From contig CP104101.1 of the NCBI GenBank assembly GCA_025163595.1, positions 62,001 through 126,000 on the forward strand: a stretch of 64,000 nt of DNA. The letters are read 5' to 3'. The stretch is from Phaeobacter sp. G2 (GTDB lineage Bacteria > Pseudomonadota > Alphaproteobacteria > Rhodobacterales > Rhodobacteraceae). The first letter of the stretch is position 1; each line of letters starts with the position of its first letter. The notes under the pieces are model-generated. The model saw only the letters and a program-made list of their open reading frames with translations. It ran no database searches and was not told the DNA's origin. Shown here piece by piece: positions 23,020 through 64,000 of the stretch. The position numbers and the translations under genes were made by a program.

Positions 23020-23586
23020 TCAATCACGGCCCCAATTTTGGAAGCCTGTATACAGAGCCACAGCGATCGCCGCTTTTGTCAGATCCCCAAGAAGGAACGG
23101 GTAAAGTCCTGCGCTCAGCAAATTTTCGCCATAGCCGATAAAGCTACCCAACCAGACTAGCCCGGCGCAATACATCAGTATCGACCCAAAAAGGACCGCG
23201 ACAGATGCCCTGAAGGCAGGCCGAAGTCCTTCCAGTGCTTGAACAATCCATCCAGCAGCCGCCGCTGCAAGTGCGAAGCCTACCAGGTATCCGCCTGTGG
23301 GACCCGCAATATACGCCAGTCCGGCCGGCGCCGGAGGCGTGCCTGCGAAGACCGGCAGGCCAAGCAGACCTTCGAAAAGGTATGTCACAACAACAAGACT
23401 ACTACGCACCGGCCCCAGGAAAAGACCCAGACCCAAGACAACCAGGGTCTGTGTAGACATAGGTACGGGGTAGAACGGCACCACGATTTTGGCGGATAGT
23501 GTCAGAAGAATTGTGCCGACGAGTATTATCGAGATCTCTTGGATAAGTTTTGCGAGTGTTTGGCTTTGACTGGTTTCCAGATTCAT
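23020..23586 (-). CDS. bioY: BioY biotin transporter (S component)
   Basis: Integral membrane biotin-binding protein of 188 residues with about six hydrophobic segments. The BioY signature stretches are clear: KIVVPFYPVPMSTQTLVVL near 33-51, and GLPVFAGTPPAPAGLAYIAG followed by PTGGYLVGF near 75-103. It can import biotin alone or with the ECF module BioMN (family knowledge). It starts 48 bases after the acyl-CoA dehydrogenase gene on the same strand with an AAGGA site, and no terminator lies between. It is therefore probably the last gene of the carboxylase operon, supplying the cofactor its BCCP needs. I saw no BioR-type operator upstream. Confidence 0.93.
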   Translation of the reverse strand: MNLETSQSQTLAKLIQEISIILVGTILLTLSAKIVVPFYPVPMSTQTLVVLGLGLFLGPVRSSLVVVTYLFEGLLGLPVFAGTPPAPAGLAYIAGPTGGYLVGFALAAAAAGWIVQALEGLRPAFRASVAVLFGSILMYCAGLVWLGSFIGYGENLLSAGLYPFLLGDLTKAAIAVALYTGFQNWGRD

Positions 23587-23634
23587 CTTTTTCGTCCTTG
23601 TTTCTGTAGATTGTTACTTTTTGGGATAGTAAGC

Positions 23635-24801
23635 TCACATGCGCTTGGCGACTTCTTCCAACATGACTTCGCTCGCCCCGCCGCCGATGGCCTGCACACG
23701 GGCATCGCGTGACATGCGTTCCACCGGTGTTTCGCGCATATAACCCATGCCGCCGTGAAACTGGACGCAGTCATAAAGCACGCTGTTCACCAGTTCGCCG
23801 CAATAGGCTTTGACCATCGAGACCTCTTTAACGCAGTCACCGCCCGCGGCATCCAGACCGGCGGCGTGATAGACCAGCTGACGTCCTGCAGCGATCCGCG
23901 TCTGACAGTCGGCCAGCCGTTGGCGCACGGCCTGCTTGTCCCACAGAACGCCGCCAAAGGCCCTGCGCTGCTTGACATAATCCACGGTCATGTCCAGCGC
24001 GGTTTGCGCTTCGGCACAGGCCATCGCACCCAGCACAATGCGTTCGTTCTGGAAGTTCTTCATTACCGAATAGAAACCGCGGTTGACCTCGCCCAAGACG
24101 TTTTCGGCCGGGATGCGGACATCTTCGAAGATCAGTTCGGCAGTGTCCGAGCACAGCCAGCCGGTCTTGTTCAACGCCCGTCCGACCGAAAAGCCCGGCG
24201 TGCCTTTTTCGACCGCAAATATGGTGATCCCGCGCGACCCCTTGGCATCGGGATCGGTCTTGGCACCGACAATGTAGAGATCGCCATGCACGCCGTTGGT
24301 GATGAACATCTTGGTGCCGTTCAGCACCCAATCCGACCCGTCCCGCACCGCGCGGGAGCGCATGCCCGCCACGTCCGAGCCCGCGCCCGGTTCGGTCACA
24401 GCAACGGCGGTGATCATTTCGCCCGAGACGATCGACGGCATCCAGCGCGCCTTCTGTTCGGGCGTGCCGGCGTTTTCCAGATGCGGCGAGGCCATGTCGG
24501 TGTGGACCAGAACCGTGGCCGAGAACCCGCCGAAAGTGGATCGCCCGACCTCTTCGGCCAAAACCACGCTGGACATCACGTCCAGCCCCGCGCCGCCATA
24601 CTGTTCGTCATAGCGCATCCCCAGCACGCCGAGATCACCCATCCGGCGCAGCACGTCGCGGGGTACCTTGCCCTCCTCTTCCCAGGGCTCGGCCTTGGCG
24701 GTCACCTCGGTTTCGATGAACCGGCGCAGCTGGTTGCGGATCATCTGGAGGTCTTCGTTGAACAGGCCGGAGGCCGCGGTGATGTTGTCTTGTTTGGTCA
24801 T
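23635..24801 (-). CDS. Acyl-CoA dehydrogenase of the citronellyl/isovaleryl type
   Basis: FAD enzyme of 388 residues that likely desaturates a branched acyl-CoA before carboxylation. It has AVTEPGAGSDVAGM (substrate and flavin loop) and QFHGGMGYMRETP. The usual MCAD Glu is absent (QAIGGGASEV), and the Glu253 of NERIVLG sits at the isovaleryl/long-chain position. Its ATG overlaps the end of the biotin carboxylase gene by four bases. The order carboxyltransferase, hydratase, biotin carboxylase, acyl-CoA dehydrogenase is that of liu/atu clusters; AtuD (citronellyl-CoA dehydrogenase) is the closest functional analogue I can suggest, without proof. Confidence 0.85.
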   Translation of the reverse strand: MTKQDNITAASGLFNEDLQMIRNQLRRFIETEVTAKAEPWEEEGKVPRDVLRRMGDLGVLGMRYDEQYGGAGLDVMSSVVLAEEVGRSTFGGFSATVLVHTDMASPHLENAGTPEQKARWMPSIVSGEMITAVAVTEPGAGSDVAGMRSRAVRDGSDWVLNGTKMFITNGVHGDLYIVGAKTDPDAKGSRGITIFAVEKGTPGFSVGRALNKTGWLCSDTAELIFEDVRIPAENVLGEVNRGFYSVMKNFQNERIVLGAMACAEAQTALDMTVDYVKQRRAFGGVLWDKQAVRQRLADCQTRIAAGRQLVYHAAGLDAAGGDCVKEVSMVKAYCGELVNSVLYDCVQFHGGMGYMRETPVERMSRDARVQAIGGGASEVMLEEVAKRM

Positions 24802-26801
24802 GTGTTTTCCTCTGGATCGAGCTTGATAAGTGGGGCGTGCCCGGCAACCGTGTCGCCCGGTGCACAATAGATTTCCGTCACCACGCCCGCGACCGGCGCG
24901 GGCAGGCTTTGCAACAGCTTCATGGCCTCAAGCACCACCAGTGTGTCACCGGCTTTGACGCGGTCGCCGAGTGCGACGCGCACCTCGGCCACGGCGCCGG
25001 GCATGGGTGCGGACAACAGGTCAGCGACGCCAGACCCGCCGGTGGCACGTTGCAGATGCTGGTCTTCCAGCGTACGCAGGTCTGTCGCGGTCATTCCAGC
25101 AGGGGTTTGCAGGTGCACTCGCCAGTGACTCGGCGCGCGCACGACGTAAGCGATGCGCGAAAATGGAACCCCGTCGAAGCGTCCGCTCAGACGGCATTCG
25201 GCTAAAGCGGCGCTCTCGACCGTTATGGCCTGGCCGTCCGGCTGTACGGCTGTCAACACCGACCCGGAGCCGTTTACGCGGATCTGGTCGTCTTTGGTCG
25301 TCGCCCAATAGGATGCTGCACCGGGCCACCCCGCAGGGGCCGTGAGCCGCCATGACCCCAGGCTTTCCCAGGGCGACGCGCCCGCCGGGGCGAGATGCAG
25401 ATGCAGCGCCATCGCGGCAAGGGCCATGTCCCGGGGATCAGCGGACGGTTCACTCCAGCCGCCTGAGAACATCTCGGGCAGGCCCGAGGTATGGTGCCGG
25501 AACGCCGCAAAATCCGGGTGTGTCAGCAACGCGCGCTGATAGGCCAGGTTCAGACCGACGCCACCGACTGCAAAGGCATCCATTGCGACAACCGCCTGAC
25601 GGATCGCACCGGCCCGGTCCGGCGCGTGGACGATCAGCTTGGCAATCATCGAATCGTAATGGTGGCTGACGACCGAGCCTGCCTCGACCCCGGTATCGAG
25701 CCGCACGCCGGCGGGCGGAGCCCAAAGGCTGATCTCGCCCGTTTCGGGGCGGAAATTCTCGTCCGGGTTTTCGGCGGCGATGCGGATTTCAATGGCGTGC
25801 CCGTCAAACTGCACATCGCCTTGCGTCAGCGCCAGCGGCTCGCCCCGCGCGATGCGCAACTGCCATTCGACCAGATCGATGCCGGTGATCGCCTCGGTCA
25901 CGGGGTGTTCCACCTGCAACCGGGTATTCATTTCCAGAAAGTAGTATTCACCGCGCCCGGGGTCATAGAGGTATTCCACCGTCCCGGCGGAGCGATAGCC
26001 GATCGCCTGCGCCAACCGCACCGCTGCCGCACGCATGCGGTCGCGCACAGCCTCGGGAAGATCGGCGGCGGGGGCTTCTTCGATCAGCTTTTGGTGGTTG
26101 CGTTGCAGCGAACAATCGCGGTCGCCCAGATGCAGCACGGTGCCGTGAGTGTCGCCCAGAACCTGCACTTCGACGTGGCGGGCACGGGGCGCATAGCGTT
26201 CGAGGAACACCGCCGGATCGCCGAAGGCGCTCTGCGCTTCGGCCCGGGCAGATGCAATCGCTTCGGGTGCGTCGCCCAGATCGGAGACAAGCCGCATCCC
26301 GCGTCCGCCGCCGCCGGCGCTGGCCTTGACCAGAAAGGGGGTGCCAAGCGCCTCGGCCTCTTGCAGCAGGCGCGCGTCGGACTGATCCTCGCCGCGATAG
26401 CCGGGCAGGACGGGCACGCCTGCGGCTTCGGCGGCAGCCTTGGCCTCGATCTTGGAGCCCATCCGCGCGATAGCGTCGGGTTCCGGCCCGATGAACACAA
26501 GGCCCGCCGCCTCGACCGCCGCCGCGAAACCGGCATTCTCAGACAGAAAACCATAGCCCGGGTGCACCGCACCCGCGCCCGTCGCCCGCGCAGCCTCAAG
26601 GATGGCCTCGACGTTCAAATAACTGTCCGACGGGGCGGCCCCACCGATGCAGACGGCATGATCGGCCTCGGCCACGAAGGGCGCGTCGCGGTCCGCGTCC
26701 GAAAACACCGCTACGCTTTCCAGCCCCAGTTTGCGGCACCCGCGCTGGATGCGCCGGGCAATCTCGCCCCGGTTGGCGATCAGAACGCGGGTGAAGCTCA
26801 T
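24798..26801 (-). CDS. Acyl-CoA carboxylase alpha subunit (biotin carboxylase + BCCP), module A
   Basis: A 667-residue fused subunit that carboxylates biotin with ATP and bicarbonate. The biotin carboxylase domain (1 to about 445) has VLIANRGEIA at the start, the GGGGRGMR glycine loop, and EMNTRLQVEHPVTE with catalytic residues. A linker/BT-type domain follows, then the biotinyl domain (about 595-667) with the modified Lys628 in EAMKLL (most relatives have EAMKM). The start was set at the ATGA overlap with the hydratase gene. It pairs with the carboxyltransferase gene two genes upstream. Methylcrotonyl- or geranyl-CoA carboxylase type; the substrate is not decided. Confidence 0.92.
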   Translation of the reverse strand: MSFTRVLIANRGEIARRIQRGCRKLGLESVAVFSDADRDAPFVAEADHAVCIGGAAPSDSYLNVEAILEAARATGAGAVHPGYGFLSENAGFAAAVEAAGLVFIGPEPDAIARMGSKIEAKAAAEAAGVPVLPGYRGEDQSDARLLQEAEALGTPFLVKASAGGGGRGMRLVSDLGDAPEAIASARAEAQSAFGDPAVFLERYAPRARHVEVQVLGDTHGTVLHLGDRDCSLQRNHQKLIEEAPAADLPEAVRDRMRAAAVRLAQAIGYRSAGTVEYLYDPGRGEYYFLEMNTRLQVEHPVTEAITGIDLVEWQLRIARGEPLALTQGDVQFDGHAIEIRIAAENPDENFRPETGEISLWAPPAGVRLDTGVEAGSVVSHHYDSMIAKLIVHAPDRAGAIRQAVVAMDAFAVGGVGLNLAYQRALLTHPDFAAFRHHTSGLPEMFSGGWSEPSADPRDMALAAMALHLHLAPAGASPWESLGSWRLTAPAGWPGAASYWATTKDDQIRVNGSGSVLTAVQPDGQAITVESAALAECRLSGRFDGVPFSRIAYVVRAPSHWRVHLQTPAGMTATDLRTLEDQHLQRATGGSGVADLLSAPMPGAVAEVRVALGDRVKAGDTLVVLEAMKLLQSLPAPVAGVVTEIYCAPGDTVAGHAPLIKLDPEENT

Positions 26802-27592
26802 TTCACCCGCCATGACGGAACGCCCTTGTTGATGAAGCTGTTGATGCCTTCGATACCTTCCTCCGTCTCCCACGCATCGGCCAGCCGGTCGGCGGTGTAG
26901 ATCATGTTGGTCTCCAGATCGTGGGACGCGACATAGGCGATCAGCGCCTTGGTATCGGCCACGGCACCCGGCGCGGCCTGAAGGTGATCATGCACCACCC
27001 GGTTCACCGTGGCGTCCAAGTCGCCCGACGCGACAACTTCGGTCAACAGACCGATCCGCTCGGCGCGGGCGGTGTCGAACAACGCCCCCGACAGCATGGT
27101 CTCACGCGAATGCACCTTGCCGATGCGGGCCACCACATAAGGCGATATATTCGCGGGCAGAAGGCCCAGCTTGACCTCGGTCAGACCGAAGCGCGCGCCT
27201 TCGGCGCCGATGGTGTAGTCGCAGACGGAAATCATGCCGACACCGCCACCGTAGGCCGGGCCGTTGATCCGCCCGATCAAGGGTTTGGGCAGCGTGTCGA
27301 GACGGCGCAACAACCGCGCCAGCGTGGCGCTCTGGTCTACCCGTTCGGCACGGGACTTTTCGATGTTTGACGAGAACCAGTTGAAATCGCCGCCCGCGCA
27401 GAAGCTCTTGCCCGCGCCGGTCAGGACCACAATACGCACATCGTCATCTGCAGCCAGCTTTTCGGCGGCATCGTATAGCTCTGCGATCAATTCGCCATTC
27501 AGCGCATTGTGTTTGTCGGGGCGGTTGAGCGTCAGCGTGGCGACGCCGCGCGCATCAGTTTCGACAAGGATCGTGTTGTAGGTATTGTTCAA
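26798..27592 (-). CDS. Enoyl-CoA hydratase, methylglutaconyl-CoA hydratase-like
   Basis: Crotonase-fold enzyme of 264 residues between the two carboxylase subunit genes, the place occupied by LiuC (3-methylglutaconyl-CoA hydratase) and AtuE (isohexenylglutaconyl-CoA hydratase). The oxyanion-hole segments are seen in SFCAGGDF (about 63-70) and GPAYGGGVG. The first crotonase Glu is replaced by Gly while the second is kept in LTEVKLGLLPA. Predicted to hydrate the glutaconyl-CoA made by the carboxylase. Ten bases separate it from the carboxyltransferase gene. Confidence 0.85.
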   Translation of the reverse strand: MNNTYNTILVETDARGVATLTLNRPDKHNALNGELIAELYDAAEKLAADDDVRIVVLTGAGKSFCAGGDFNWFSSNIEKSRAERVDQSATLARLLRRLDTLPKPLIGRINGPAYGGGVGMISVCDYTIGAEGARFGLTEVKLGLLPANISPYVVARIGKVHSRETMLSGALFDTARAERIGLLTEVVASGDLDATVNRVVHDHLQAAPGAVADTKALIAYVASHDLETNMIYTADRLADAWETEEGIEGINSFINKGVPSWRVK

Positions 27593-27601: not shown

Positions 27602-29200
27602 TCACATTCTGAATACAGGCGTATGGCGACCGGCTTCGGGCACCGATGTCACGATGGCCAGGCACAGGCCAAGGATATCGCGGGTTTGCGCGGGTTCGAT
27701 CAGCCCGTCATCCCAAAGCCGCGAGGTGGCATAATAGGGATCGGACTGTTCACCATACTGGGCCCGAACCTGCTCCTCGATCAGCTTCATGTCGGCCTCC
27801 ATCTTGCCCGGGTCGCCCCCTTTCTGGCGGCGCAGTTCCAGCATCACATTTGTAGCGATGTCGGCAGACATGGTGGCCAGTTCCGCCGTGGGCCAGGCAA
27901 AGAGAAAATTCGGGGCGAAACCACGTCCGCACATGCCGTAGTTGCCTGCCCCGTATGAGCCGCCCAAGAGGACCGACAGGCGCGGCACCTTGGCAACCGA
28001 CATGGCATAGACCAGCTTGGCACTGTCTTTGGCAATGCCGCCGCGCTCGGCTTCGGTGCCGACCATGAAGCCCGAGATGTTGTGGAGGAACAAAAGCGGG
28101 ATGTTGCGTTGATCGCACATCGACACGAATTGCGCGCCCTTGAGCGAACTGTCGGACACAAGCGCCCCATTATTTGCGAGAATGCCCACTCGATAGCCGT
28201 GAATCCGCGCGGTGCCGCAGACCAGCGTCTCACCCCATCCGGGCTTGAATTCGCGGAATTCGCCGGCGTCGATCATGCGCAGTAGAACCTCGCGCATGTC
28301 ATAGGGCTGTTTGCGATCGGCGCTGATGACGCCAAGCAGTTCCTCTGGGTTGCGCGCCGGCGGCGCGCAGGTTGCATCGGGACCCATCGGGCGCGACAGG
28401 CCCAGTTCGGATACGATGTCGCGCATCAGAGCAAGCGCATGATACTCGTCCTCGGCCAGATGGTCAGACACACCGGAGACGCGCGAATGCATCTCGGCCC
28501 CCCCCAATGTTTCTCCATCAACCTCTTCGTTGATCGCCACCTTGACGATCGAGGGGCCGCCCAGATGGATGCGTGCGTTGCCGCGTACCATGATGACTTC
28601 GTCCGACAGGGCCGGGATATAGGCCCCACCGGCCGTGCAGCCTCCAAAGACCGCCGCGATCTGCGGCAGGCCGCTCGCGGACATGTTGGTTTGACGATAA
28701 AAGGAATTGCCGAAATGGCGGGCATCGGGGAAAACCCGGTCCTGCTCTGGCAGATAGGCACCGCCGCAATCCACCAGATAGAGGCAGGGCAGCCGGTTCT
28801 CGGCTGCGATTTCCTGGGCGCGGATGTGTTTCTGCACGGTTTCGTGATAGAAAGACCCACCCTTCACTGTCGCATCGTTGGCGATCACAACGCAGGGAAG
28901 CCCGTGGACGATCCCGATACCGGTCACGATTCCCGCACCGGGCACCTCGCCCCCGTATTGACCGTAGGCGGCAAGCGACGACAGCTCAAGAAACGCAGTG
29001 CCCGTATCTACCAGCAGGTCGATCCGTTCGCGAACCAACAGCTTGCTGCGCTTGCGATGCCGCGCGACCATGTCGGGGCGGCCGCCAGCCGTTGCTTCGG
29101 CGATCCGCGCGCGCAGCGTTTCGACGCGCTCGCTTTGTGCGGCGTGGTTGCGGGTGTAGGTCTCTGATGCGGTCAGCACCGCTGTTTCAAGACGTGCCAT
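27602..29200 (-). CDS. Acyl-CoA carboxylase beta subunit (carboxyltransferase), module A
   Basis: A 532-residue carboxyltransferase of the methylcrotonyl/geranyl-CoA carboxylase type; it moves CO2 from biotin to the gamma carbon of an enoyl-CoA. Both crotonase-like halves are present, with oxyanion-hole glycine motifs GGCTAGGAYIPALSDE and GGSYGAGNYGMCGRGF. The start MARLETAV was chosen because it lies directly after the tetR stop; the frame's upstream extension overlaps tetR. It is the first structural gene of the operon headed by tetR. Confidence 0.93.
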   Translation of the reverse strand: MARLETAVLTASETYTRNHAAQSERVETLRARIAEATAGGRPDMVARHRKRSKLLVRERIDLLVDTGTAFLELSSLAAYGQYGGEVPGAGIVTGIGIVHGLPCVVIANDATVKGGSFYHETVQKHIRAQEIAAENRLPCLYLVDCGGAYLPEQDRVFPDARHFGNSFYRQTNMSASGLPQIAAVFGGCTAGGAYIPALSDEVIMVRGNARIHLGGPSIVKVAINEEVDGETLGGAEMHSRVSGVSDHLAEDEYHALALMRDIVSELGLSRPMGPDATCAPPARNPEELLGVISADRKQPYDMREVLLRMIDAGEFREFKPGWGETLVCGTARIHGYRVGILANNGALVSDSSLKGAQFVSMCDQRNIPLLFLHNISGFMVGTEAERGGIAKDSAKLVYAMSVAKVPRLSVLLGGSYGAGNYGMCGRGFAPNFLFAWPTAELATMSADIATNVMLELRRQKGGDPGKMEADMKLIEEQVRAQYGEQSDPYYATSRLWDDGLIEPAQTRDILGLCLAIVTSVPEAGRHTPVFRM

Positions 29201-29204: not shown

Positions 29205-29834
29205 TCAGGTATCCTGTCTTTGGAGTATCCCGTTGAGGAACACATCGGCATAGGTGCGTGACAACGCATCGGCGCTACCGCGGTCCGGGTCGAACCAATC
29301 GAGCGTGGCGTTCAATGTACCGATCAGCATCAGGCGCAGGCGACGGATATCGACGTCTTGCTTCAGCGTGCCATCTTTCTTAAGCTGGGACAGAAGACTG
29401 TCCCACTCAGCCTCATAGGTCCTGCGCGTGGGCAAGTTGGCATCCCGGACGGATTGCGGCACCTGCCCGAAAATACGCACATTCGCCGATGTATAATCGC
29501 TCACATCAAGAAGCGCGCGCAAATGCGCCCGGATCGCAGAGCGCAGGATCGTTTCGCCATCGGTATCGGCTGGCAGGTCGGTGATGGCGTCTCTCATACT
29601 CGCGTGAACGACCCGAATCCCTGCATCAAGAACGGCCGCGACGATCTCGTCCTTGGAACCGAAATGATAGTATATGCTACCCGCCTTGATCCCGGCGGCC
29701 TCGGCAATTTTTCGGAGCGAAACGGACCCGTAGCCTTGTTCGCGGAAAAGCCGCGCGGCAATGTCCAGCACCCCGTCCCGTCCAACCGCGCTGCGCGATG
29801 TCTCGTTGACTTTGATTGCCGTGTTTTGTGCCAT
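29205..29834 (-). CDS. TetR-family repressor of the carboxylase operon
   Basis: A 209-residue TetR regulator. The N-terminal helix-turn-helix (about 20-66) includes SLRKIAEAAGIKAGSIYYHF. The ligand domain contains the SDYTSANVR motif shared with both halves of the double TetR at 44366-45688, so these regulators are one subfamily. It is the first gene of its operon, with a CTAAC-N4-GTTAG palindrome 25-45 bases ahead of its start, so autoregulation by an acyl-CoA-type ligand is likely (inference). LiuR/AtuR-like control of terpene or leucine genes is the closest known theme. Confidence 0.9.
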   Translation of the reverse strand: MAQNTAIKVNETSRSAVGRDGVLDIAARLFREQGYGSVSLRKIAEAAGIKAGSIYYHFGSKDEIVAAVLDAGIRVVHASMRDAITDLPADTDGETILRSAIRAHLRALLDVSDYTSANVRIFGQVPQSVRDANLPTRRTYEAEWDSLLSQLKKDGTLKQDVDIRRLRLMLIGTLNATLDWFDPDRGSADALSRTYADVFLNGILQRQDT

Positions 29835-32307: not shown

Positions 32308-32919
32308 ATGGCATACTGTTATGAGTTCAAGGGTTTTATACCCGTCGTGCCCGAGGATACATATGTCCACCCTCAGGCCGTTCTGATCGGGAATGTCATC
32401 CTGGGTCATGGATGCTACATCGGCCCCGGGGCAAGCTTGCGGGGCGATTTCGGCAGGATCGTGATCGGGGATGGAGCCAATGTTCAGGACAATTGCATCA
32501 TCCATTCCTTTCCCGGCCGCGACGCCGTGGTGGAAAGCGACGGCCACATCGGCCATGGCGCGATCCTGCACGGTTGCACGGTGGGCCGGAACGCTCTGGT
32601 CGGAATGAATTCCGTCATTATGGATGGTGTAGAGCTTGGGGCGGAATCGATTGTCGGCGCGCAGGCGTTTGTGCGTGGCGAAACCGTGATTCCGTCGCGT
32701 TCGATGGTGGTGGGATCGCCGGCAAAGGTGATCCGCGAGGTCAGCGAGAAAGAAATCGCGTGGAAAACGCGCGGCACCGCGGAATACCAGCAACTTGCGC
32801 GCGATTGTCTGGCCGGATTGACGCCGGTCGAGCCGCTGAAGGCGGTCGAGGCAGACCGGCCCGGCATGGCGGCCTCTGACGTCGTTTCGATTCAGGAGGC
32901 GCGGCAGACATCGTCCTGA
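32308..32919 (+). CDS. Gamma-carbonic-anhydrase/PaaY-like hexapeptide protein
   Basis: A 203-residue left-handed beta-helix protein with isoleucine-rich hexapeptide repeats ([10 protein letters not shown], then [11 protein letters not shown], then AILHGCTVG). The SLRGDFG motif and His residues in IIHSF and [10 protein letters not shown] match the zinc site of gamma-carbonic anhydrases. PaaY, a relative, is a thioesterase that clears dead-end CoA thioesters in phenylacetate breakdown; CaiE is another. Here it is transcribed away from the thiolase operon and faces a carboxylase operon. Either bicarbonate supply or CoA-ester clearing is possible. GGTGG precedes the chosen ATG. Confidence 0.85.
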
Positions 32920-56071: not shown

Positions 56072-57232
56072 ATGGAATTCACTTTGAACGACGAACAGCG
56101 CCAGATTTACGAATACGGCGGTCAGTTGGCGCAGAAATACGACAATGCGTATTGGCTCGACCACGCCCGCAGGCATGAGTTCCCGCACGAGATGTTCAAA
56201 CAGATTGCTGACGATGGTTTTCTGGGCATCATGGTGCCCGAGGAATACGGCGGCGCCGGCCTTGGCATGACCGAAATGGCGTTGTTCATGGAGGGCACCG
56301 CCAATCACGGCATACCGCTTCTGATGATGGTGGTCGGGCCGACCATGTCGCTGGCCCATATCGCCAGCCACGGGAGCGAATTCCACAAGAAGGAGCTGCT
56401 GCCGGCTGCCTGCCGCGGTGATATCCAGTTCTGTTTCGCGATCACCGAACCGGGTGCCGGGTCGAACACGATGAAGGCCACCACGCTGGCTAAGCGTCGG
56501 GGCAACCGGTTCAGCCTGTCGGGCGAAAAGACCTTTATCACCGGCGCCGAGGTGTCGGACTATTGTCTGGTGGTGGCGCGCACCAAGCCGCACACAGAAG
56601 TCAGCCGCAAGACCGACGGCTTTACCCTGTTCGCCGTAGATCTGAAGAAAAAAGGCGTCGACAAGCAGCGGGTGAAGATCTCGATCCCCCTGCCCGAAGA
56701 ACAGTGGACCTTGTTTTTCGACGAGGTGGATCTGGGCCCCGAGGATGTGGTCGGCGAGGTGGACGAAGGGTTCTCGATCCTGTTCGACAGTCTCAACCCC
56801 GAACGCATCATCCTGGCCGCTTTGTGCTGCGGCATCGGCCGCTTCGCGCTGAACAAGGGCGTGGCCTATGCCTCCGAGCGCAATGTTTTCGGCCAACCCA
56901 TCGGTGCACACCAGGGCGTGCAGCACCCGATGGCCAAGGCGCACACAGCGGTCGAGATGGCCAGCCTGATGACCCGTCGCGCGGCCTGGGAATTCGACAA
57001 CAAGCTGCCCGCGGGGGCCTCGTCGAATATGGCCAAGTATGCCGCCGCCGAAGCTGGGATCGAAGCGGTGGACGCCGCGCTGCAGGCGCATGGCGGATCG
57101 GGTTTCACCGAGGATACGGGACTTTACGAGATGTATCCGCTGGTGCGCCTGTTGCGTACGGCACCCGTGAACCGCGAGCTGTGCCTCAGCTTCATCGGCG
57201 AAAAGGTCATGGGTCTGCCGCGGTCCTATTGA
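56072..57232 (+). CDS. Acyl-CoA dehydrogenase (386 aa)
   Basis: An FAD enzyme with ITEPGAGSNTMKATT (about 125) and AHGGSGFTEDTG. Glu244 in NPERIILAA occupies the isovaleryl/long-chain base position; the C-terminal site (LLRTAPVNREL) lacks the MCAD Glu. Length and pattern are like those of branched-chain or citronellyl-type dehydrogenases. It starts ten bases after the hydratase stop with GAGGA upstream. It may act on a later intermediate than the AliB-like enzyme. Confidence 0.88.
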   Translation: MEFTLNDEQRQIYEYGGQLAQKYDNAYWLDHARRHEFPHEMFKQIADDGFLGIMVPEEYGGAGLGMTEMALFMEGTANHGIPLLMMVVGPTMSLAHIASHGSEFHKKELLPAACRGDIQFCFAITEPGAGSNTMKATTLAKRRGNRFSLSGEKTFITGAEVSDYCLVVARTKPHTEVSRKTDGFTLFAVDLKKKGVDKQRVKISIPLPEEQWTLFFDEVDLGPEDVVGEVDEGFSILFDSLNPERIILAALCCGIGRFALNKGVAYASERNVFGQPIGAHQGVQHPMAKAHTAVEMASLMTRRAAWEFDNKLPAGASSNMAKYAAAEAGIEAVDAALQAHGGSGFTEDTGLYEMYPLVRLLRTAPVNRELCLSFIGEKVMGLPRSY

Positions 57233-57258: not shown

Positions 57259-58650
57259 ATGCAATTTGGAATGCGCTTCCGGCGGGAGGATGCCGCCGAT
57301 AAGGTAAACGATCGTTTCTGGCACGAAATCGAGGGCACGCCGCTTGACGAAGTGCGCCGCATTCAGGAAGAGCGACTGCGTGCGCAGATGGCCTATCTCA
57401 AGACGAACTCGACCTTCTATCAGGAAAAGTTAGCCGAAGCGGGCGTGGAGTTCGACGATATTCGCACCATCGAAGACCTGCAAAAGCTGCCCTATACTTA
57501 CAAGACCGAGATCCGCGAAAGCCTGGCCGCCGAGCCGCCGTTTGGCAAACACCGCGCCGCGCCGATGGCCGACATCATTCAGATGCAGGCCTCGTCGGGC
57601 ACCACCGGCAGCCCCTCATATGTTGCCCTTACCGAATCCGACGCCGAAATGTGGCACGAGATGACAGCGCGCTGCTTCTTTGCCAATGGCGTGCGCCCCG
57701 GCGACATGGTGTTGCACGCGTTTTCGCTGGCCAAGGGCTTTGTCGGCGGCATCCCCGTGATGCAGGGATTGCAGTACATGGGCACAATCGATGTGCCGGT
57801 GGGGGCGGATGGCGGTGCGGAGCGGCTGCTGCGCGCTTGCGCCGACACGCGTCCGCGCTGCATCGTCGGCGCGCCGAACTTCGTGCTGCACCTGGCGGAA
57901 AACGCGCCAGAGGTGCTGGGATGCAAGGCCAGTGAGCTGGGAGTGGAACAGGTGATCGTCGGAGGAGAGCCCGGTGGTGGCATCCCGGCAATTCGCGCCA
58001 AGATCGAAGCGGCCTGGGGTGCGAAATGCACCGAAATGCTGGGTGGCACCGATCTGGGTGTGACCTACTGGGCCGAATGCGACGCCCAGTCGGGGATGCA
58101 CATGGTCAACATGGACTATATCATCACTGAATTGCTCGACCCCGAGAGCGGCGACATCATCCCTTGGAAAAAAGGCGCCGAGGGCGAGATGATCTATACC
58201 GCGATTGGCCGTCAGGCGAGCCCGGTGGTGCGTTTCCGGTCCGGCGACTATATCGAGGTGATCGACACCGAATGTTCCTGCGGGCGTACCGGACCCAAGA
58301 TCCGCTGCACCGGCCGGACCGACGACATGCTGATCGTGCGCGGGGCCAATGTGTTCCCGTCGGCCATCAACAGCGTGATCACCGAGATGGTGCCGGACAC
58401 TAACGGCGTCATGCGCATCGTGGCCGATTTCGAAGGTCATACCACGCAGGGCGCGCTGAAAGTGATCGTCGAACGCGGACCCGACCGCGATACCGCGGAC
58501 GATGCTGCCCTCAAGAAGAAAATCGAACAGCGCCTGCGCGATGCCCTGGTCTTCAAGGCCGACGTTCACCTGGTCGCGCCCGACACTTTTGAAAAACCCG
58601 GCGCCGCCAAGGTTGCCTTTGTTCTGAGAGAATATCCCGACCTGCCATGA
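57259..58650 (+). CDS. PaaK-type (phenylacetate-CoA ligase-like) acyl-CoA ligase
   Basis: A 463-residue ANL ligase of the short PaaK class. The P-loop is QASSGTTGSPSY (about 112-123), followed by GCRGT-like EMLGGTDLGVTY and a CSCGRTGPKIRCTGRTDD block near 340-357, whose Cys residues suggest a metal site seen in some PaaK relatives. It lacks the long N-terminal domain of fatty acyl-CoA synthetases. PaaK-type enzymes activate aryl or alicyclic acetates, so a ring acid is a fair guess. GGAGGA precedes the start; it overlaps the carboxyltransferase gene by four bases. Confidence 0.85.
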   Translation: MQFGMRFRREDAADKVNDRFWHEIEGTPLDEVRRIQEERLRAQMAYLKTNSTFYQEKLAEAGVEFDDIRTIEDLQKLPYTYKTEIRESLAAEPPFGKHRAAPMADIIQMQASSGTTGSPSYVALTESDAEMWHEMTARCFFANGVRPGDMVLHAFSLAKGFVGGIPVMQGLQYMGTIDVPVGADGGAERLLRACADTRPRCIVGAPNFVLHLAENAPEVLGCKASELGVEQVIVGGEPGGGIPAIRAKIEAAWGAKCTEMLGGTDLGVTYWAECDAQSGMHMVNMDYIITELLDPESGDIIPWKKGAEGEMIYTAIGRQASPVVRFRSGDYIEVIDTECSCGRTGPKIRCTGRTDDMLIVRGANVFPSAINSVITEMVPDTNGVMRIVADFEGHTTQGALKVIVERGPDRDTADDAALKKKIEQRLRDALVFKADVHLVAPDTFEKPGAAKVAFVLREYPDLP

Positions 58651-60254
58651 CAAAAATGATATCCCTGCTCGATACCGGGTCAGATGACTTCCGGCAAAAC
58701 GATACACAGTATCGCGACAAAGTCGGCGAGCTGCATGCCCTTCGCTTGCAACAACGTGTCGGTGGCCCTGAAAAGGCCCGCGAACGGCACGTGTCGAAAG
58801 GCAAGATCCTGCCGCGCGAACGCGTCGAACGGCTGATCGATCCGGGCACCCCCTTTCTGGAAGTCGGGGAGCTTGCCGGGCTGAACAAATATGATGGTGT
58901 ACCGCCGGGGGCGGGCATCATCACTGGCATCGGCGTGATCGAGGGCCGCCAGTGCATGATCATCGCCAATGATGCCACCGTGAAGGGCGGCACCTATTTC
59001 GGCATGACCTGCCGCAAGCACGTGCGCGCCCAGAAGATCGCGTGGAAGAACCGCCTCCCGGTGATCACGCTGGTCGATTCCGGCGGCGCGTTTCTGCCGG
59101 ATCAGGAGAACATTTTCCCCGATGAGGGGCAGTTCGGATCGATCTTTCACCAGCAGATCGGCATGTCCGGTGACGGTGTGCCGCAGATCGCGGTGGTCAT
59201 GGGCCCCTGCACTGCGGGTGGTGCCTATATCCCGGCGCTCTGCGACGAGGTGGTGATCGTGCGCGGTCAGGGCTTTATGTATCTGGGCGGACCGGAACTG
59301 ACCTTTGCTGCCACCGGCGAAAAGGTGGATGCCGAAGAACTTGGCGGCGGCAAGATGCACTCGTCCGTGTCGGGTGTGACCGACCATCTTGCCGAGGATG
59401 ACGCCCACGCGCTGGCCATCACCCGCGAGATCGTCAGCCATCTGGGCGAAAAACCCCTGCCCCGCAAGACGCCCAAGACGCCGCGCGCGCCCGCCTATCC
59501 GGTCGAGGAAATCTACGGCATCGTCAGCCGCGACCCCAAGGTGCCAACCGACAACCGCGAGATTGTCGCACGGCTGGTGGATGACAGCGATTTCCACGAG
59601 TTCAAGCCGCTTTATGGTGACACGATCATGACCGGCTGGGGCCGGATCCACGGCCACGAAGTGGGCATTCTCGCCAATACCGGCGTGCTGTTCGTCGAGG
59701 CCGCGTTGAAGGCGACGCATTTCATCAACCTCTGCGTACAGCGCGACATTCCACTGCTGTTTCTGGCGGATGTGAACGGCTTCATGGTTGGCCGCGAGGT
59801 CGAACAGATGGGCATCGCCAAGGCGGGTGCCAAGATGATCACGGCCATGTCTTCGGCCCGGGTGCCAAAGTTTACCATCATCACCGGCGGCTCTTACGGG
59901 GCGGGATACCTGGCAATGCTGGGCCGCCCGTTCCAGCCGGACGCAATGTTCGCCTGGCCAACAGGACGGTCCGCGATCATGGGGCCGGAACAGGCCGCCA
60001 GCGTGCTGGCGCAGGTCCGCGCACAGATCAACGAACGCGAAGGCAAAAGCTGGACCCCCGAAGAGGAGGAAGCCTTCAAGGCGCCCATCCGCAAGGAATA
60101 CGAGGATTTTCAAGGTGCTTACAATTTTGCCTCTAACCTCTGGATCGACAGCGTGATCGAGCCTTGTGAAACCCGCGATGTCATGGCGCTCATGCTGGAT
60201 GTGACCTCGCGCAGACCCAAGGCCGAAACCAATTTCGGCGTGTTCAGGATGTGA
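58647..60254 (+). CDS. Acyl-CoA carboxylase beta subunit (carboxyltransferase), module C
   Basis: A 535-residue carboxyltransferase with GPCTAGGAYIPALCDE and GGSYGAGYLAMLGRPF oxyanion-hole motifs. The second motif differs from modules A and B (GAGNYGMCGR there), so its acyl pocket is probably different. Coupled to the PaaK-like ligase gene by ATGA and followed 10 bases later by the alpha subunit gene. The order carboxyltransferase, alpha subunit, HMG-CoA-lyase-like gene is that of leucine/isovalerate clusters. Confidence 0.92.
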   Translation: MTKMISLLDTGSDDFRQNDTQYRDKVGELHALRLQQRVGGPEKARERHVSKGKILPRERVERLIDPGTPFLEVGELAGLNKYDGVPPGAGIITGIGVIEGRQCMIIANDATVKGGTYFGMTCRKHVRAQKIAWKNRLPVITLVDSGGAFLPDQENIFPDEGQFGSIFHQQIGMSGDGVPQIAVVMGPCTAGGAYIPALCDEVVIVRGQGFMYLGGPELTFAATGEKVDAEELGGGKMHSSVSGVTDHLAEDDAHALAITREIVSHLGEKPLPRKTPKTPRAPAYPVEEIYGIVSRDPKVPTDNREIVARLVDDSDFHEFKPLYGDTIMTGWGRIHGHEVGILANTGVLFVEAALKATHFINLCVQRDIPLLFLADVNGFMVGREVEQMGIAKAGAKMITAMSSARVPKFTIITGGSYGAGYLAMLGRPFQPDAMFAWPTGRSAIMGPEQAASVLAQVRAQINEREGKSWTPEEEEAFKAPIRKEYEDFQGAYNFASNLWIDSVIEPCETRDVMALMLDVTSRRPKAETNFGVFRM

Positions 60255-60264: not shown

Positions 60265-62271
60265 ATGAAAATCAAAACGCTTCTAATCGCCAATCGCGGC
60301 GAAATTGCCTGCCGGATCGCGCGCACCGCGCGGGCCAGCGGTATCACCCCTGTTGGCGTGCATTCCGAAGCCGACGCCAATGCCCTACATGTCCGCGAGA
60401 TCGGGCAATCAGTCTGCATCGGTGCCGGACCGGCGTCCGAGAGCTATCTGAAGATCGACGCGGTGATTGCCGCCGCGAAATCGGTCGGCGCGGATGCGAT
60501 CCATCCCGGTTATGGCTTTCTGGCCGAGAACTCTGATTTTGCCCGTGCGGTCGAGGCCGCCAGCATGGTCTTCATGGGGCCGACCCCGGACACGCTTGAC
60601 CGTTTCGGCGACAAGGCCAGCGCCAAAGAGGCTGCCGTGGCCGCCGGCGTCCCGGTTATTTCGGGTGCCGAAGGCGCGTGGTCCGATCCGCAAGAGATTG
60701 CCGATGAAGTCCGCGCAATGGGCCTGCCCGTTCTGCTCAAGGCCGTCGGCGGCGGTGGCGGGCGCGGCCAGCGGCTTGTCACCGATGAGGCCACCCTTGT
60801 GGAAGACATCGAAGGCGCCCTTCGCGAGGCGAAATCCACCTTTGGCTCCGAAGGGCTGTTGCTGGAACGTTTCCTGCCAGAAGCGCGCCATGTCGAAGTG
60901 CAGATCGCGGGTGATGGCAAGGGGCACGTGGTGCACCTGTTCGAACGTGACTGCACGCTTCAGCGCCGTCACCAGAAGGTTATCGAAGAGGCTCCGGCTT
61001 GGGGCTTGCCCCGTGCGCTGCTGGACGAGATCGCGCATGACGCGGTGCGCCTGGGTGAAACGCTTGACTATCGCGGCCTCGGCACGGTGGAGTTTCTGGT
61101 CGCGGGCGAGGATTACTTCTTTCTTGAGGTGAACCCCCGCATCCAGGTGGAACACCCCGTCACCGAGGCGATCACCGGCCTGGATCTGGTTGCTCTGCAC
61201 CTGCGCATTGCCGAAGGCGCAGGCCTTGGTCTGGTGCAGGATGATCTGGCGATCAATGGCCACGCGGTCGAGGCGCGGCTTTACGCCGAAGATCCGGCGA
61301 TGCAGTTCGCCCCCTCAACCGGCACCTTGACCACGCTCAGCCTGCCGGAAGGTTTGCGCATCGACAGCGGTGTCGAAGAAGGCGACGCAGTGACGCCCTT
61401 CTATGATCCGATGATCGCCAAACTGATTGTGCATGCACCCGACCGGGAAACCGCCTTGGCGCGGCTGGCGACAGCCTTGGACCACGTCGCGGTTGAGGGT
61501 GTGCAAACCAATCGCGCCTTCCTGACGGCGTTGGTGCGGAACCCGGAATTCGAACGGATGCAGGTTCACACGCGCTGGATCGACGGCAGGCTGGACGAAC
61601 TGACACAGGCAGCCCCCCTTGTCCGTCCCGATCTGTGGAAGGCGGCAGCCGCCATTCTCTTCGTGGCCAAGTCGCGTGGCGGTACTGATGCCAATCCCTG
61701 GACCAACCGTGACTCCTTTACCGGCTGGCGGCTTGGCCTGGGCGGTGATGCGATCGAAGCGGGGCCGAGTGTGACGCTCACCGATTCAGACGATGAATCC
61801 GAGGAATTGCGCATCGGACCTGTCAAACCGGGTGCCAAATACACCGTCCATTCGGAAAACGGCGAAGCGCTGACACTGTCCGCCCGTGAAATCACGCCGG
61901 GCCGCTGGCGCCTGAGTGAAGGCGACACCGTCCACCTGATCGAAGCACGTCTGAGCGCCGGCGTGATCGAACTGGACACGCCCGAAGGCCGCCTGGTCTT
62001 CCGTCCGGCCGCGCCCCTCGCCTTTGCTGGCGGTGATGCGGTGGCAGATCGCGCCGTGACCTCTCCGCTGACAGGGATGATTGTCGAAATCAAGGTCGCC
62101 GAAGGCCAGGCTGTCGCAGAGGGTGACGTGGTTGCGGTGATGGAATCGATGAAACTTGAAATCTCGATCCGGGCGGCTGCAGCCGGGATCGCCAGCAACA
62201 TTTCCGTCTCGAATGGGGACATGGTCGATCGCGGCCAGGTCATCGCCGAGATTCTACCGTCCGAGGAGTGA
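60265..62271 (+). CDS. Acyl-CoA carboxylase alpha subunit (biotin carboxylase + BCCP), module C
   Basis: A 668-residue fused subunit: biotin carboxylase domain with LLIANRGEIACRIARTA, the AVGGGGGRGQRLV glycine loop and EVNPRIQVEHPVTEA; a middle linker domain; and a biotinyl domain at the C-terminus with Lys630 in ESMKLE. In the EMNTR motif of relatives Val replaces Met and Pro replaces Thr. GAGGAGC precedes the ATG. It forms the third complete carboxylase of the window with the preceding gene. Confidence 0.92.
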   Translation: MKIKTLLIANRGEIACRIARTARASGITPVGVHSEADANALHVREIGQSVCIGAGPASESYLKIDAVIAAAKSVGADAIHPGYGFLAENSDFARAVEAASMVFMGPTPDTLDRFGDKASAKEAAVAAGVPVISGAEGAWSDPQEIADEVRAMGLPVLLKAVGGGGGRGQRLVTDEATLVEDIEGALREAKSTFGSEGLLLERFLPEARHVEVQIAGDGKGHVVHLFERDCTLQRRHQKVIEEAPAWGLPRALLDEIAHDAVRLGETLDYRGLGTVEFLVAGEDYFFLEVNPRIQVEHPVTEAITGLDLVALHLRIAEGAGLGLVQDDLAINGHAVEARLYAEDPAMQFAPSTGTLTTLSLPEGLRIDSGVEEGDAVTPFYDPMIAKLIVHAPDRETALARLATALDHVAVEGVQTNRAFLTALVRNPEFERMQVHTRWIDGRLDELTQAAPLVRPDLWKAAAAILFVAKSRGGTDANPWTNRDSFTGWRLGLGGDAIEAGPSVTLTDSDDESEELRIGPVKPGAKYTVHSENGEALTLSAREITPGRWRLSEGDTVHLIEARLSAGVIELDTPEGRLVFRPAAPLAFAGGDAVADRAVTSPLTGMIVEIKVAEGQAVAEGDVVAVMESMKLEISIRAAAAGIASNISVSNGDMVDRGQVIAEILPSEE

Positions 62272-62275
62272 TGAC

Positions 62276-63235
62276 ATGAGCGACTTTCCCAAATTCGTCG
62301 AATTTCGAGAAGAAGGCCCGCGTGAGGGATTTCAGATCGAAAAAAAGATCTATCCGATCGAAGAACGGATCGAACTGATCGACATGCTCAGCGAAACCGG
62401 TCTGAAGCGCATTCAGGTCGGTAGCTTTGTCAGCCCGAAATATGTGCCGCAGATGGCAGACACCGGGGAGTTGTTCCAGCGTATCAAGCGCAAGCCGGGC
62501 GTGAATTACACGTCGCTGTGGCTGAACGACAAAGGGTTTCGCAAGGCCCTGACGGCGCATGAGGTCGATATCGACCCGCGCCTGCTGTTCTATCCTTCCG
62601 AGGCATTTGCCCAATCGAACAACAATTGTTCGTCCGCAGACATGCGGGAAAAACAACGCGACTGGGTTCGTCTTTACAAGGAAGAGGGATATACGGTCGA
62701 CGCGGCCTATGTGATGACCGCCTTCGGCTGCAACCTCGAAGGCCCCATCCCGCAAGAACGCATTCTGGACGATTTCCGCTTCATTCTTCAGCTTTGCGAA
62801 GAAGAGGACATCCCCGTGCCAATCCTTGTGATCGCCGACACCATGGGCTGGGGAAACCCCGAGGCGGTCAAACGCATGATCGACGCCCTGCGCGAAATGG
62901 CGCCCGAGGCGCGCATCGGTATGCATATCCACGACACGCGGGGGCTTGGGATCGCCAATCTCCATGCCGCCCTGTCGATGGGTGTGGACATGTTCGAAAG
63001 CTCGGTCGCCGGTCTTGGCGGTTGTCCTTTCGCGGGCCACGGCCACGCCCGCGCCGCAGGAAATGTCTGCACTGAGGATGCGGTGTTCCTGTGTCACGAG
63101 CTCGGCATCGAAACCGGCATTGATCTGGACAAGCTGATCGCAGCGGCGGCCAAGGCGGAAGAGATCATCGGCGTACCGCTCATGGGCCGGGTCATGCATA
63201 CCGGCGGCCTGGACAAATATCGCAAGGCAAGCTGA
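62276..63235 (+). CDS. HMG-CoA lyase-like enzyme
   Basis: A 319-residue TIM-barrel lyase of the HMGL/DRE family, which retro-aldol cleaves 3-hydroxy-3-methylglutaryl-CoA or longer analogues. The metal site HIHDTRGLGIAN (about 222) and the catalytic-Cys segment SSVAGLGGCPFA (about 242-253) are present. Two oddities: the N-terminal PRDG motif reads PREG, replacing the metal-binding Asp by Glu, and after CPFA the sequence AGHGHARAAGN departs from the usual form. So substrate or reaction may differ from HMG-CoA lyase. It follows the carboxylase, as liuE follows liuD. Confidence 0.83.
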   Translation: MSDFPKFVEFREEGPREGFQIEKKIYPIEERIELIDMLSETGLKRIQVGSFVSPKYVPQMADTGELFQRIKRKPGVNYTSLWLNDKGFRKALTAHEVDIDPRLLFYPSEAFAQSNNNCSSADMREKQRDWVRLYKEEGYTVDAAYVMTAFGCNLEGPIPQERILDDFRFILQLCEEEDIPVPILVIADTMGWGNPEAVKRMIDALREMAPEARIGMHIHDTRGLGIANLHAALSMGVDMFESSVAGLGGCPFAGHGHARAAGNVCTEDAVFLCHELGIETGIDLDKLIAAAAKAEEIIGVPLMGRVMHTGGLDKYRKAS

Positions 63236-63246
63236 GGGAGATGAGA

Positions 63247-64000
63247 ATGTCAAAGGCACTTGATGGAAAGGTTGTTCTGGTCACCGGGGCCGGGGGCGGG
63301 ATCGGGTGTGACATCGCCTTGATGGCAGCCTCCGAAGGCGCTGCCGTTGTGGTCAATGATCTGGGCGCGTCACTGAAGGGCACCGGACAGACGGAAACTG
63401 CGGCGCAGAAAGTCGTTGAAGAAATCAAGGCCGCCGGGGGCGACGCCATTGCCGATGGCGGCAACGTCACCGACCCCGACGCCGCCCGCGCGATGATCGA
63501 GGCCGGTGTCAAGGAATTCGGCCGCATCGACGCGGTGGTGAACAACGCCGGCATCCTGCGTGACGGGTTCTTCCACAAGATGACATACGAGGATTTCGAC
63601 GCGGTGGTGAAGGTCCACCTGTACGGCGCCTTCAATACCAGCCGCGCGGCGGCCGATTATTTCCGCGAACAGGAGGGCGGTGCTTTGGTGCACATGACCT
63701 CGACCTCGGGGCTGATCGGCAATCTGGCGCAGGCGAACTATTCGGCCGCAAAGCTGGGCATCGCGGCCTTCTCGAAATCGGTCGCGCTCGACCTGAAACG
63801 TTGGAACGTGCGTTCGAACTGCATCGCGCCCTTCGCCTGGAGCCGGATGATCTCGTCTATCAAGACAGACACCCCGGAACAGGTGGCGCGTGTCGAGAAG
63901 ATCAAGGAAATGACACCGGCCAAGGTCGCGCCAATGGCCTGTTTTCTGATGAGCGACCGCGCGTCTGACGTTTCCGGTCAAATCTTTGCGGTTCGCAAAA
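63247..64000 (+). CDS. SDR dehydrogenase, MFE-2-like (runs off the window)
   Basis: An SDR with GAGGGIG (about 14-20) and VNDLGASLKGTG, the style of peroxisomal multifunctional enzyme 2 and related 3-hydroxyacyl-CoA dehydrogenases. VNNAGILRDG and YSAAK with the preceding Ser are intact. At least 251 residues are present; the 3' end lies outside. The second of two nearby ATGs is chosen, six bases after GAGGGAG. It probably oxidises a 3-hydroxyacyl-CoA after hydration. It may carry further domains beyond the window. Confidence 0.87.
   Translation, partial: MSKALDGKVVLVTGAGGGIGCDIALMAASEGAAVVVNDLGASLKGTGQTETAAQKVVEEIKAAGGDAIADGGNVTDPDAARAMIEAGVKEFGRIDAVVNNAGILRDGFFHKMTYEDFDAVVKVHLYGAFNTSRAAADYFREQEGGALVHMTSTSGLIGNLAQANYSAAKLGIAAFSKSVALDLKRWNVRSNCIAPFAWSRMISSIKTDTPEQVARVEKIKEMTPAKVAPMACFLMSDRASDVSGQIFAVRK

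Follow-up and report, generated by a model that had tools for sequence, protein, structure and literature searches.

The window analysed here, the whole 64,000-nucleotide stretch of Phaeobacter sp. G2 DNA, corresponds to bases 62001-126000 of contig C2 (199,094 bases); the host genome comprises 4.96 Mb in 7 contigs, including a 4.1-Mb contig, C1. The window encodes ring enzymes resembling AliB and BadH together with three biotin carboxylases. The cluster probably encodes a mobile pathway that degrades cyclohexane carboxylic acids with alkyl branches, of the terpenoid or naphthenic type, and the window region would be its left two thirds. Ring opening is predicted from sequence to be carried out by an EchA15-type hydrolase, ECH6, and enzymes of this type seem not to have been linked with the reaction before. 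Gene content was checked by NCBIfam and Pfam profile searches. All of the enzymes named in the original prediction, which was made from the window alone, are present (AtuA, the carboxylases, the BadH-like and AliB-like enzymes, the SCP-x thiolase, an OYE/FadH-type reductase and a 3-hydroxy-3-methylglutaryl-CoA (HMG-CoA) lyase), and a pathway acting on both ring and branches is likely. Its left edge at 23,020 stands, with transposase genes to the left (14.0-15.4 and 20.3-22.7 kb), but its right edge at 64,000 does not, as the gene run continues to about 82.6 kb and is followed by more CoA-ester genes.

ECH6 as a candidate ring-opening hydrolase

No BadI is encoded in the host genome, where the best of 34 crotonase-like matches to the BadI model scored 136 bits (cut-off, 467.6); a BadI encoded elsewhere in that genome was therefore rejected, no match being over the cut-off or near it. 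The original prediction had likewise reported no BadI in the window, and had suggested that the ring-cleaving hydrolase lies outside, right of 64 kb, or is an unrecognised enzyme. Both look to be true: the best candidate, and a strong one, is ECH6 (80,622-81,431 in extended window coordinates, L003:16622-17431; minus strand), 17 kb right of the window.

ECH6 is a member of the EchA15 family by its match to PRK07327 (425 bits; cut-off, 292), and its best match in the PDB is EchA15 (3q1t, 317 bits). For 3q1t, which is without both hydratase glutamates, it has been argued that the protein is not an enoyl-CoA hydratase and is a better fit to a beta-diketone hydrolase of Anabaena (PMC3584854; here and below, papers are cited for the parts of their text that were covered). 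ECH6 has a catalytic set of this beta-diketone hydrolase type, namely H39, D139, H141, D150, and E239. The residue pairing was read from the ECH6-3q1t alignment, in which chain positions and the numbering of PMC3584854 are offset by 4. The five residues (His, Asp, His, Asp, and Glu) are conserved in all 32 distinct family sequences, ECH6 included. An earlier likening of ECH6 to 6-oxocamphor hydrolase was replaced by the published comparison of 3q1t and 2j5s.

The genomic context of BadH is consistent with ECH6 standing in for BadI. In a class sample of 385 genomes, a BadH threshold of E<=1e-78 gave 45 matches in 43 genomes. Within 6 kb of the 44 BadH loci outside the window, BadI was present at 24, ECH6 at 7, neither at 13, and both at none. 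Three of the seven ECH6-adjoining loci belong to one genus, and the 13 loci with neither gene include at least two at contig ends and one (G265p) with ECH6 25 kb away. In a BadH tree, the window falls in a clade (99/92) with G265p, G057, G342, and G123; ECH6 lies within 6 kb of BadH in the last three and at 34 kb in the window. The partner label changes 3 times on this tree compared with a shuffled mean of 6.7, a count as low being reached in 0/500 shuffles. In G057, for instance, ECH6 adjoins ECH4-AliB-BadH. The BadI label of G107 was separately confirmed, and G265 has a separate AliB-BadH-BadI operon (G265:C1:1390079-1392768; L093) in addition to a plasmid-type cluster on a 1.4-Mb contig. 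At the thresholds used, 0/4 same-family genomes in the sample had AliB, ECH6, or BadH, as expected of a mobile trait.

Spread on plasmids and in named genomes

Contig C2 was inferred to be a plasmid from two observations. Left of the window is a set of open reading frames (ORFs) sized and arranged like a VirB-type conjugation set (judged by size and likeness to annotated sets), and two plasmids with orthologous genes, pMaD1 and Sagittula P11 unnamed2, are classed as conjugative (MOBP/MPF_T) and have a type IV secretion system left of the cluster. The same genes are found again, in order, on plasmids of several genera and on contigs of metagenome-assembled genomes (MAGs) of Bradyrhizobium, Ferrovibrio, and Roseovarius, so their grouping is not due to chance. 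The 9.1-kb AliB operon is covered to at least 80% in 37 of 46 matched plasmid records (H41-H77), at 77-90% DNA identity, and these 37 plasmids span Sagittula, Roseibium, Paracoccus, Sulfitobacter, Pseudosulfitobacter, Roseovarius, Marinovum, and Nitratireductor. The ACAD7-ECH6-PaaK2 operon is present on every one of the 37, separated from the AliB operon by roughly 5 to 86 kb along the shorter arc.

Relatives of the acyl-CoA dehydrogenase ACAD1 were followed through the best 80 of 219, which correspond to 80 named loci. Among these, ACAD1 is present at 100% in Phaeobacter italicus and Mesobacterium pallidum and at 93% in the gammaproteobacterium Marinobacter aromaticivorans, and its relatives include many roseobacters, Bradyrhizobium, Ferrovibrio, and MAGs with oil-pointing names. 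The Marinobacter matches suggest a cross-class transfer of part of the cluster. M. aromaticivorans D15-8P (L214) has CT1 at 92% and ECH6 at 96%, but AliB at only 52%, beside BadI.

AliB, ECH6, and BadI were searched for in 49 genomes from the 80 named ACAD1 loci, the other 31 being left out. An AliB of at least 83% was present in 35 of the 49, and every one of these 35 also has an ECH6 of at least 82% (one cut by a contig end), on the same contig in 29. BadI occurs in 6 of the 35, always on another contig than that AliB. Twelve genomes are without a close ECH6; eight of them have BadI and four have neither. BadI is present in 7 and absent from 30 genomes with a close ECH6, compared with 8 and 4 of those without (Fisher p = 0.0036, uncorrected for kinship).

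Three carboxylases that differ at a selectivity residue

The cluster encodes three carboxyltransferases (CTs) and three biotin carboxylases (BCs), each of the latter with a biotin carboxyl carrier protein (BCCP), fused in two cases and separate in one. CT1 (27602..29200, minus strand) is paired with BC1 (24798..26813, minus; fused BCCP, biotin motif EAMKL), CT2 (33031..34638, minus) with BCCP2 (34641..35144, minus) and BC2 (35144..36613, minus; no BCCP of its own), the last two recognised by profile and motif, and CT3 (58656..60254, plus) with BC3 (60265..62271, plus; fused BCCP). BC3 was named without a profile search, from the annotation of its Sagittula plasmid orthologue and its biotin motif, ESMKL.

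By sequence, CT1, CT2, and CT3 are all in the gamma-carboxylating lineage of methylcrotonyl-CoA carboxylase (MCC) and geranyl-CoA carboxylase (GCC). The best chain named MCC scored 585-597 bits, GCC 423-430, and 1vrg, the best of the clear propionyl-CoA carboxylase (PCC) group, 270-291; the scores of two further chains, 9tps (deposited as PCC beta; 571-596 bits) and AccD1 4q0g (up to 635), are in the range of the MCC group. GCC has Gly in place of the Phe of MCC at a selectivity position (PMC4673880), which was located here by alignment with 5ikl and 3u9r. This residue is Phe in CT1 (57/57 distinct sequences of at least 56% identity) and in CT3 (7/7 distinct sequences), and Gly in CT2 (30 of 33 distinct sequences, with one Ala and two cut off), the window copy being included each time. 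The three carboxylases are therefore not alike, and only the AtuA-linked CT2 has the Gly of GCC. CT2 keeps the insertion length of MCC and so is not a plain GCC, in which Gly is combined with the absence of a 3-residue insertion; CT1 and CT3 differ from GCC by their Phe. Contig C1 has two further MCC-type CTs and a GCC-type CT adjoining a second AtuA. The plasmid set is thus unlikely to be there for simple acyclic terpenes. The second AtuA and GCC-type CT on C1 (C1:926936 onward; L005) form a classical-looking Atu set.

Proposed pathway

The analysis shows the gene content, the plasmid linkage, the co-inheritance, the exclusivity of BadI and ECH6 next to BadH, and the conserved residues, whereas all of the reactions, their sequence, and the class of substrate are inferred. 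The substrate class is the weakest part of the reading, and is suggested by gene content and by relatives with oil-pointing names; the compounds named in the original prediction, a perillate-like or naphthenic acid or a polyisoprenoid with a cyclic head, are candidates only. The acid would be activated by one of the CoA ligases and taken through ring steps as in the bad-ali pathway, in which dehydrogenation by the AliB-like enzyme, hydration by ECH4, and oxidation by the BadH-like enzyme would yield 2-oxo-cyclohexanecarboxyl-CoA. ECH6 may then open the ring in place of BadI to give a branched dicarboxylyl-CoA. This would be shortened by beta-oxidation, with the PimC-like ACAD7 and, for alpha-methyl ketoacyl-CoAs, the SCP-x thiolase. 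Gamma-carboxylation at beta-alkyl blocks within beta-oxidation is established Atu/Liu chemistry. At such blocks, ACAD1 would dehydrogenate, CT1/BC1 gamma-carboxylate, ECH1 hydrate, and the HMG-CoA-lyase-type enzyme cleave. Other acyl sizes might be served by CT3/BC3 and by CT2/BC2/BCCP2, the AtuA-linked carboxylase with Gly in its pocket. A 4-alkyl ring acid, for instance, could give a 3-alkylglutaryl-CoA that is finished by the HMG-CoA-lyase-type enzyme, as proposed for limonene (PMC12583861).

Alternative explanations

Several observations weigh against this pathway. The identity between BadI and ECH6 is only 29.5%, and the BadH-like and AliB-like proteins do not reach the equivalog cut-offs. 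The 37 plasmids include many nearly identical copies from Pseudosulfitobacter, and the 46 matched records were typed as 27 non-mobilizable, 14 conjugative, and 5 mobilizable. ECH6 is also more widespread than the ring set, occurring in 49 of the 385 class genomes where AliB occurs in 38 and both in 22, and of 20 ECH6 loci inspected, only 3 have a BadH of at least 65% nearby. The record of Frigidibacter mobilis, a strain from oil-production water, has the ECH6 operon and pieces of operon A (the operon of ACAD1, TetR1-CT1-ECH1-BC1-ACAD1) and no AliB-operon match. A BadI match was found in 17 of 20 AliB genomes tested (4 over the cut-off), several of them with ECH6; several class genomes contain both BadI and an ECH6 of about 60%, G057 also has a BadI match on another contig (305 bits, below the cut-off), and a Cycloclasticus MAG has an ECH6 of 56% besides BadI. 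Because several genomes with AliB and ECH6 also have BadI, the class-wide co-occurrence of AliB and ECH6 was not taken as proof.

The alternative that survives best is that ECH6 catalyses a later step, as an atypical hydratase or isomerase, and that another crotonase or hydrolase of the host opens the ring. It is unlikely, yet deserves serious weight, as ECH6-family genes are also present in genomes without AliB, without an adjacent BadH, or with BadI, and the BadI model has 34 crotonase-like matches in the host, none over the cut-off. On such an account, however, the absence of both hydratase glutamates from 3q1t (PMC3584854), the retention of the five diketone-hydrolase residues in ECH6, and the position of ECH6 in the place of BadI next to BadH would be unexpected. 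An IpdAB-type ring hydrolase was also considered and rejected, as matches to class I CoA-transferases are on C1 only.

It is somewhat harder to credit that two or more independent islands, for alicyclic and for branched-chain acids, merely share one plasmid. Several separate regulators are present, and on the plasmids a distance of 5 to 86 kb separates the ECH6 and AliB operons. In other Pseudosulfitobacter plasmids, the match to the 14.8-kb operon A-AtuA query is confined to its first 5.6 kb (ACAD1 to CT1), so that operon A occurs there without the rest. Among the listed matches, the Pseudosulfitobacter plasmids H166-H188 (mostly 100-112 kb, one 198 kb) have ACAD1-BC1-ECH1-CT1 alone, at about 81% identity. 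In contrast, the modules are contiguous in a Bradyrhizobium MAG, where one 46-kb contig (G413:C241) carries ACAD7-ECH6-PaaK2-TetR2-BadH-ACS-OYE-AliB-ECH4-ACAD4-PaaK-CT3-BC3-HMGCL...CT1-ECH1-BC1-ACAD1 and a Liv-type set; a further point against the proposed pathway is that this contig is without AtuA or CT2. Ring and carboxylase blocks are near each other in the Ferrovibrio and Roseovarius MAGs. In G296 and G097, from another family of the class, the order is AliB-ACAD-OYE-BadI-TetR1-CT1-ECH1-BC1-ACAD1, and in the Cycloclasticus MAG it is AliB-ECH4-BadI-PaaY-ACAD7...PaaK-CT3-BC3. The earlier claim that ring enzymes and gamma-carboxylases belong together is thus borne out, with operon A beside AliB, OYE, and BadI in the former and PaaK-CT3-BC3 after AliB-ECH4-BadI in the latter. 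Moreover, ECH6 (at least 82%) or BadI is present in 45 of the 49 searched ACAD1 genomes (of 80 loci). The contiguous or neighbouring modules in the MAGs and in G296/G097 favour one pathway.

A ring may not be involved at all, and the substrates of the AliB-like and BadH-like enzymes could be alpha-methyl-branched acyclic acyl-CoAs from a saturated isoprenoid of the pristane or phytanate type, with SCP-x cleaving 2-methyl-3-oxoacyl-CoAs and the carboxylases clearing beta-methyl groups. The genome without BadI, the sub-cut-off scores of BadH and AliB, and an SCP-x thiolase that has its Cys are all compatible with this. It is nevertheless improbable: relatives of the same AliB, ECH4, BadH, and OYE genes adjoin true BadI genes, the place of BadI is taken by a beta-diketone-hydrolase-like enzyme, and an acyclic chain should need no retro-Claisen hydrolase. 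AliB-like relatives of 54-64% identity adjoin BadI, as do BadH-like relatives of 56-67% at 24 loci, and ECH4 relatives of 50-59% occur with AliB and BadI. Ordinary leucine/isovalerate and acyclic terpene (Liu/Atu) genes, finally, are a very remote prospect even though the gene order of operon A is that of the liu/atu operon, as two CTs of the MCC type and an AtuA-linked one of the GCC type are already encoded on C1.

Gene content of the cluster and its flanks

At the left end of the cluster, on the minus strand, a BioY-like biotin importer (23020..23586) is named from the annotation of the orthologous Sagittula P11 gene, the window copy having no NCBIfam match at 1e-10. Also on this strand are ACAD1 (23635..24801), which is 70% identical in the ring-linked clusters of G296/G097; the crotonase ECH1 (26798..27592), which matches PRK07468 above its cut-off (369 bits; cut-off, 350) and the gamma-carboxygeranoyl-CoA hydratase model below it (218 bits; cut-off, 426); the regulator TetR1 (29205..29834) and the short-chain dehydrogenase/reductase (SDR) SDR1 (30015..30845), both from profile searches; and the SCP-x type thiolase (30870..32054), which matches PRK08256 (691 bits; cut-off, 436) and retains the motif NNNCSTG. 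A PaaY-like hexapeptide protein (32308..32919, plus) scores 291 bits against TIGR02287 (cut-off, 320). AtuA, with its AtuA ferredoxin-like domain (36626..38425), and the crotonase ECH2 (38447..39232), both minus, were assigned by profile.

Profiles likewise identified, on the plus strand, ACAD2 (39367-40581) and ACAD3 (40595-41794), followed by SDR2, ECH3, and two hotdog thioesterases (41843..44350), and, on the minus strand, TetR2 (44366..45733), in which two TetR units form one protein. Regulators of similar length hold the same place in pMaD1 and Sagittula P11. The BadH-like 2-hydroxycyclohexanecarboxyl-CoA dehydrogenase, an SDR (45761..46585, plus), scores 366 bits against TIGR03206 (curated cut-off, 431), and the AliB-like cyclohexanecarboxyl-CoA dehydrogenase (54105..55286, plus) 523 bits against TIGR03207 (cut-off, 575); as both are under their equivalog cut-offs, "BadH-like" and "AliB-like" are the right words. 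Between them are an acetate/acetoacetate-CoA-ligase-like protein (46698..48635, plus), an NmrA-like SDR (48632..49486, plus), and an AMP-forming acyl-CoA ligase (50412..51950, minus), all by profile, and the OYE/FadH-type reductase (51978..54011, minus), which is below every listed cut-off and is annotated as a 2,4-dienoyl-CoA reductase in Sagittula P11. ECH4 (55283..56062, plus) is BadK-like by position, its relatives adjoining AliB/BadI/BadH, and no BadK-specific model was among its 25 listed profile matches. It is followed on the plus strand by ACAD4 (56072..57232) and a PaaK-like acyl-CoA ligase (57259..58650), from profiles, and, after CT3 and BC3, by the HMG-CoA-lyase-family enzyme (62276..63235; PRK05692 266 bits, cut-off 246) and SDR3 (63247..64161, the window ending at 64000 within the gene), relatives of which adjoin BadH and BadI in G359 and G281.

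Right of the window, SDR3 is followed by a citryl-CoA-lyase-like gene, ACAD5, a MaoC-like gene, a Liv-type transporter with FadD, and SDR4, and then by a CoA-transferase III, a crotonase, a thiolase, ACAD6, PaaK2 (79398-80594 in extended window coordinates), ECH6, and the PimC-like ACAD7 (81471-82622, by profile). The MaoC, two Liv permeases, the binding protein, and PaaK2 carry the names of their annotated orthologues on other plasmids, since their own profile searches gave nothing at the limits used. Farther along, C2:145001-174007 encodes, along with CoA-transferase-like, thiolase-like, and acyl-CoA dehydrogenase-like genes, a second Liv-like set whose Liv proteins share about 33-49% identity with those of the first; to the right of this set is a 1016-aa ORF of the size of a resistance-nodulation-division pump (judged by size alone). 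Left of the cluster, the block at 692-12386 contains aldehyde dehydrogenase, GMC oxidoreductase, AMP ligase, thiolase, acyl-CoA dehydrogenase, and FadB-like genes and resembles an alcohol or fatty acid oxidation set, split from the cluster by the transposase genes (14.0-22.7 kb).

Significance and comparison with known systems

The reading gives a testable function to EchA15-type proteins, now annotated as enoyl-CoA hydratases, and would explain how bacteria without BadI could open alicyclic rings. More broadly, and tentatively, EchA15-family crotonases may be retro-Claisen hydrolases of 2-oxo-cycloalkanecarboxyl-CoAs, a second and unrelated solution to ring opening. Such enzymes might have displaced BadI in marine bacteria, within a pathway on plasmids in which ring opening and gamma-carboxylation are combined, which would allow growth on branched alicyclic acids, for example those of petroleum or aged marine organic matter. 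As a plasmid trait of many marine roseobacters and some oil-named samples, the cluster could govern the breakdown of branched ring acids, namely naphthenic acids, terpenoids, and possibly carboxyl-rich alicyclic matter. A search of the open literature listed no paper with the words EchA15 or PRK07327, and further searches gave none that ties EchA15 to alicyclic ring opening except the structural prediction in PMC3584854 (subscription journals being outside the scope). The plasmid cluster is not described in the titles and abstract openings surveyed in the open literature, nor, by term look-up, in two Sulfitobacter papers.

Among characterised systems, the bad-ali pathway for cyclohexane carboxylate in Rhodopseudomonas palustris and Aromatoleum sp. 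CIB (PMC9795900) shares the AliB-, BadK-like, and BadH-like steps, the CoA ligase, and the dicarboxylyl-CoA beta-oxidation expected after ring opening. Unlike that pathway, the cluster is plasmid-borne, is without BadI, for which an EchA15-type crotonase is proposed instead, and adds several gamma-carboxylases, AtuA, HMG-CoA lyase, and a Liv-type transporter. The mrc genes of Castellaniella defragrans 65Phen (PMC4109377) similarly unite a BadH-like protein (MrcD), a dienoyl-CoA reductase (MrcC), and an acyl-CoA dehydrogenase (MrcB) in one island, but with a BadI-like hydrolase, MrcE. Although the ring logic is common to both, that genome is without atu genes according to its authors, and the cluster was therefore rejected as a perillate/limonene (mrc) island. 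The earlier statement that alicyclic clusters lack methyl-branch carboxylases thus holds for the characterised examples in these two papers, as far as their text was covered, but not for genomes at large. With the Atu/Liu systems the cluster shares AtuA, gamma-carboxylating CT/BC pairs, a hydratase, and HMG-CoA lyase; it differs in having the GCC Gly only in CT2, with the MCC Phe in CT1 and CT3, and in its additional ring enzymes. For the lrc operon of Syntrophobacteraceae LiM6 (PMC12583861), ring opening followed by cleavage of a 3-hydroxy-3-alkylglutaryl-CoA by an HMG-CoA-superfamily enzyme was also proposed; there the ring hydrolase is LrcA, and no biotin carboxylase is named for the operon in the parts of the paper covered.

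As to ECH6 itself, the catalytic residues predicted for EchA15 and the Anabaena beta-diketone hydrolase (3q1t and 2j5s; PMC3584854) are kept, but the Anabaena enzyme is CoA-independent according to the title of a structure paper cited there, whereas ECH6 is proposed to act on a CoA ester. EchA20, the HIEC-CoA hydrolase of steroid ring catabolism (PMC5380842), is likewise a crotonase-superfamily enzyme other than BadI that opens the ring of a CoA ester, and its authors leave open whether other EchAs act in the same way. EchA20 groups with MenB (PMC5380842), whereas ECH6 is of the EchA15 family and has a different catalytic set.

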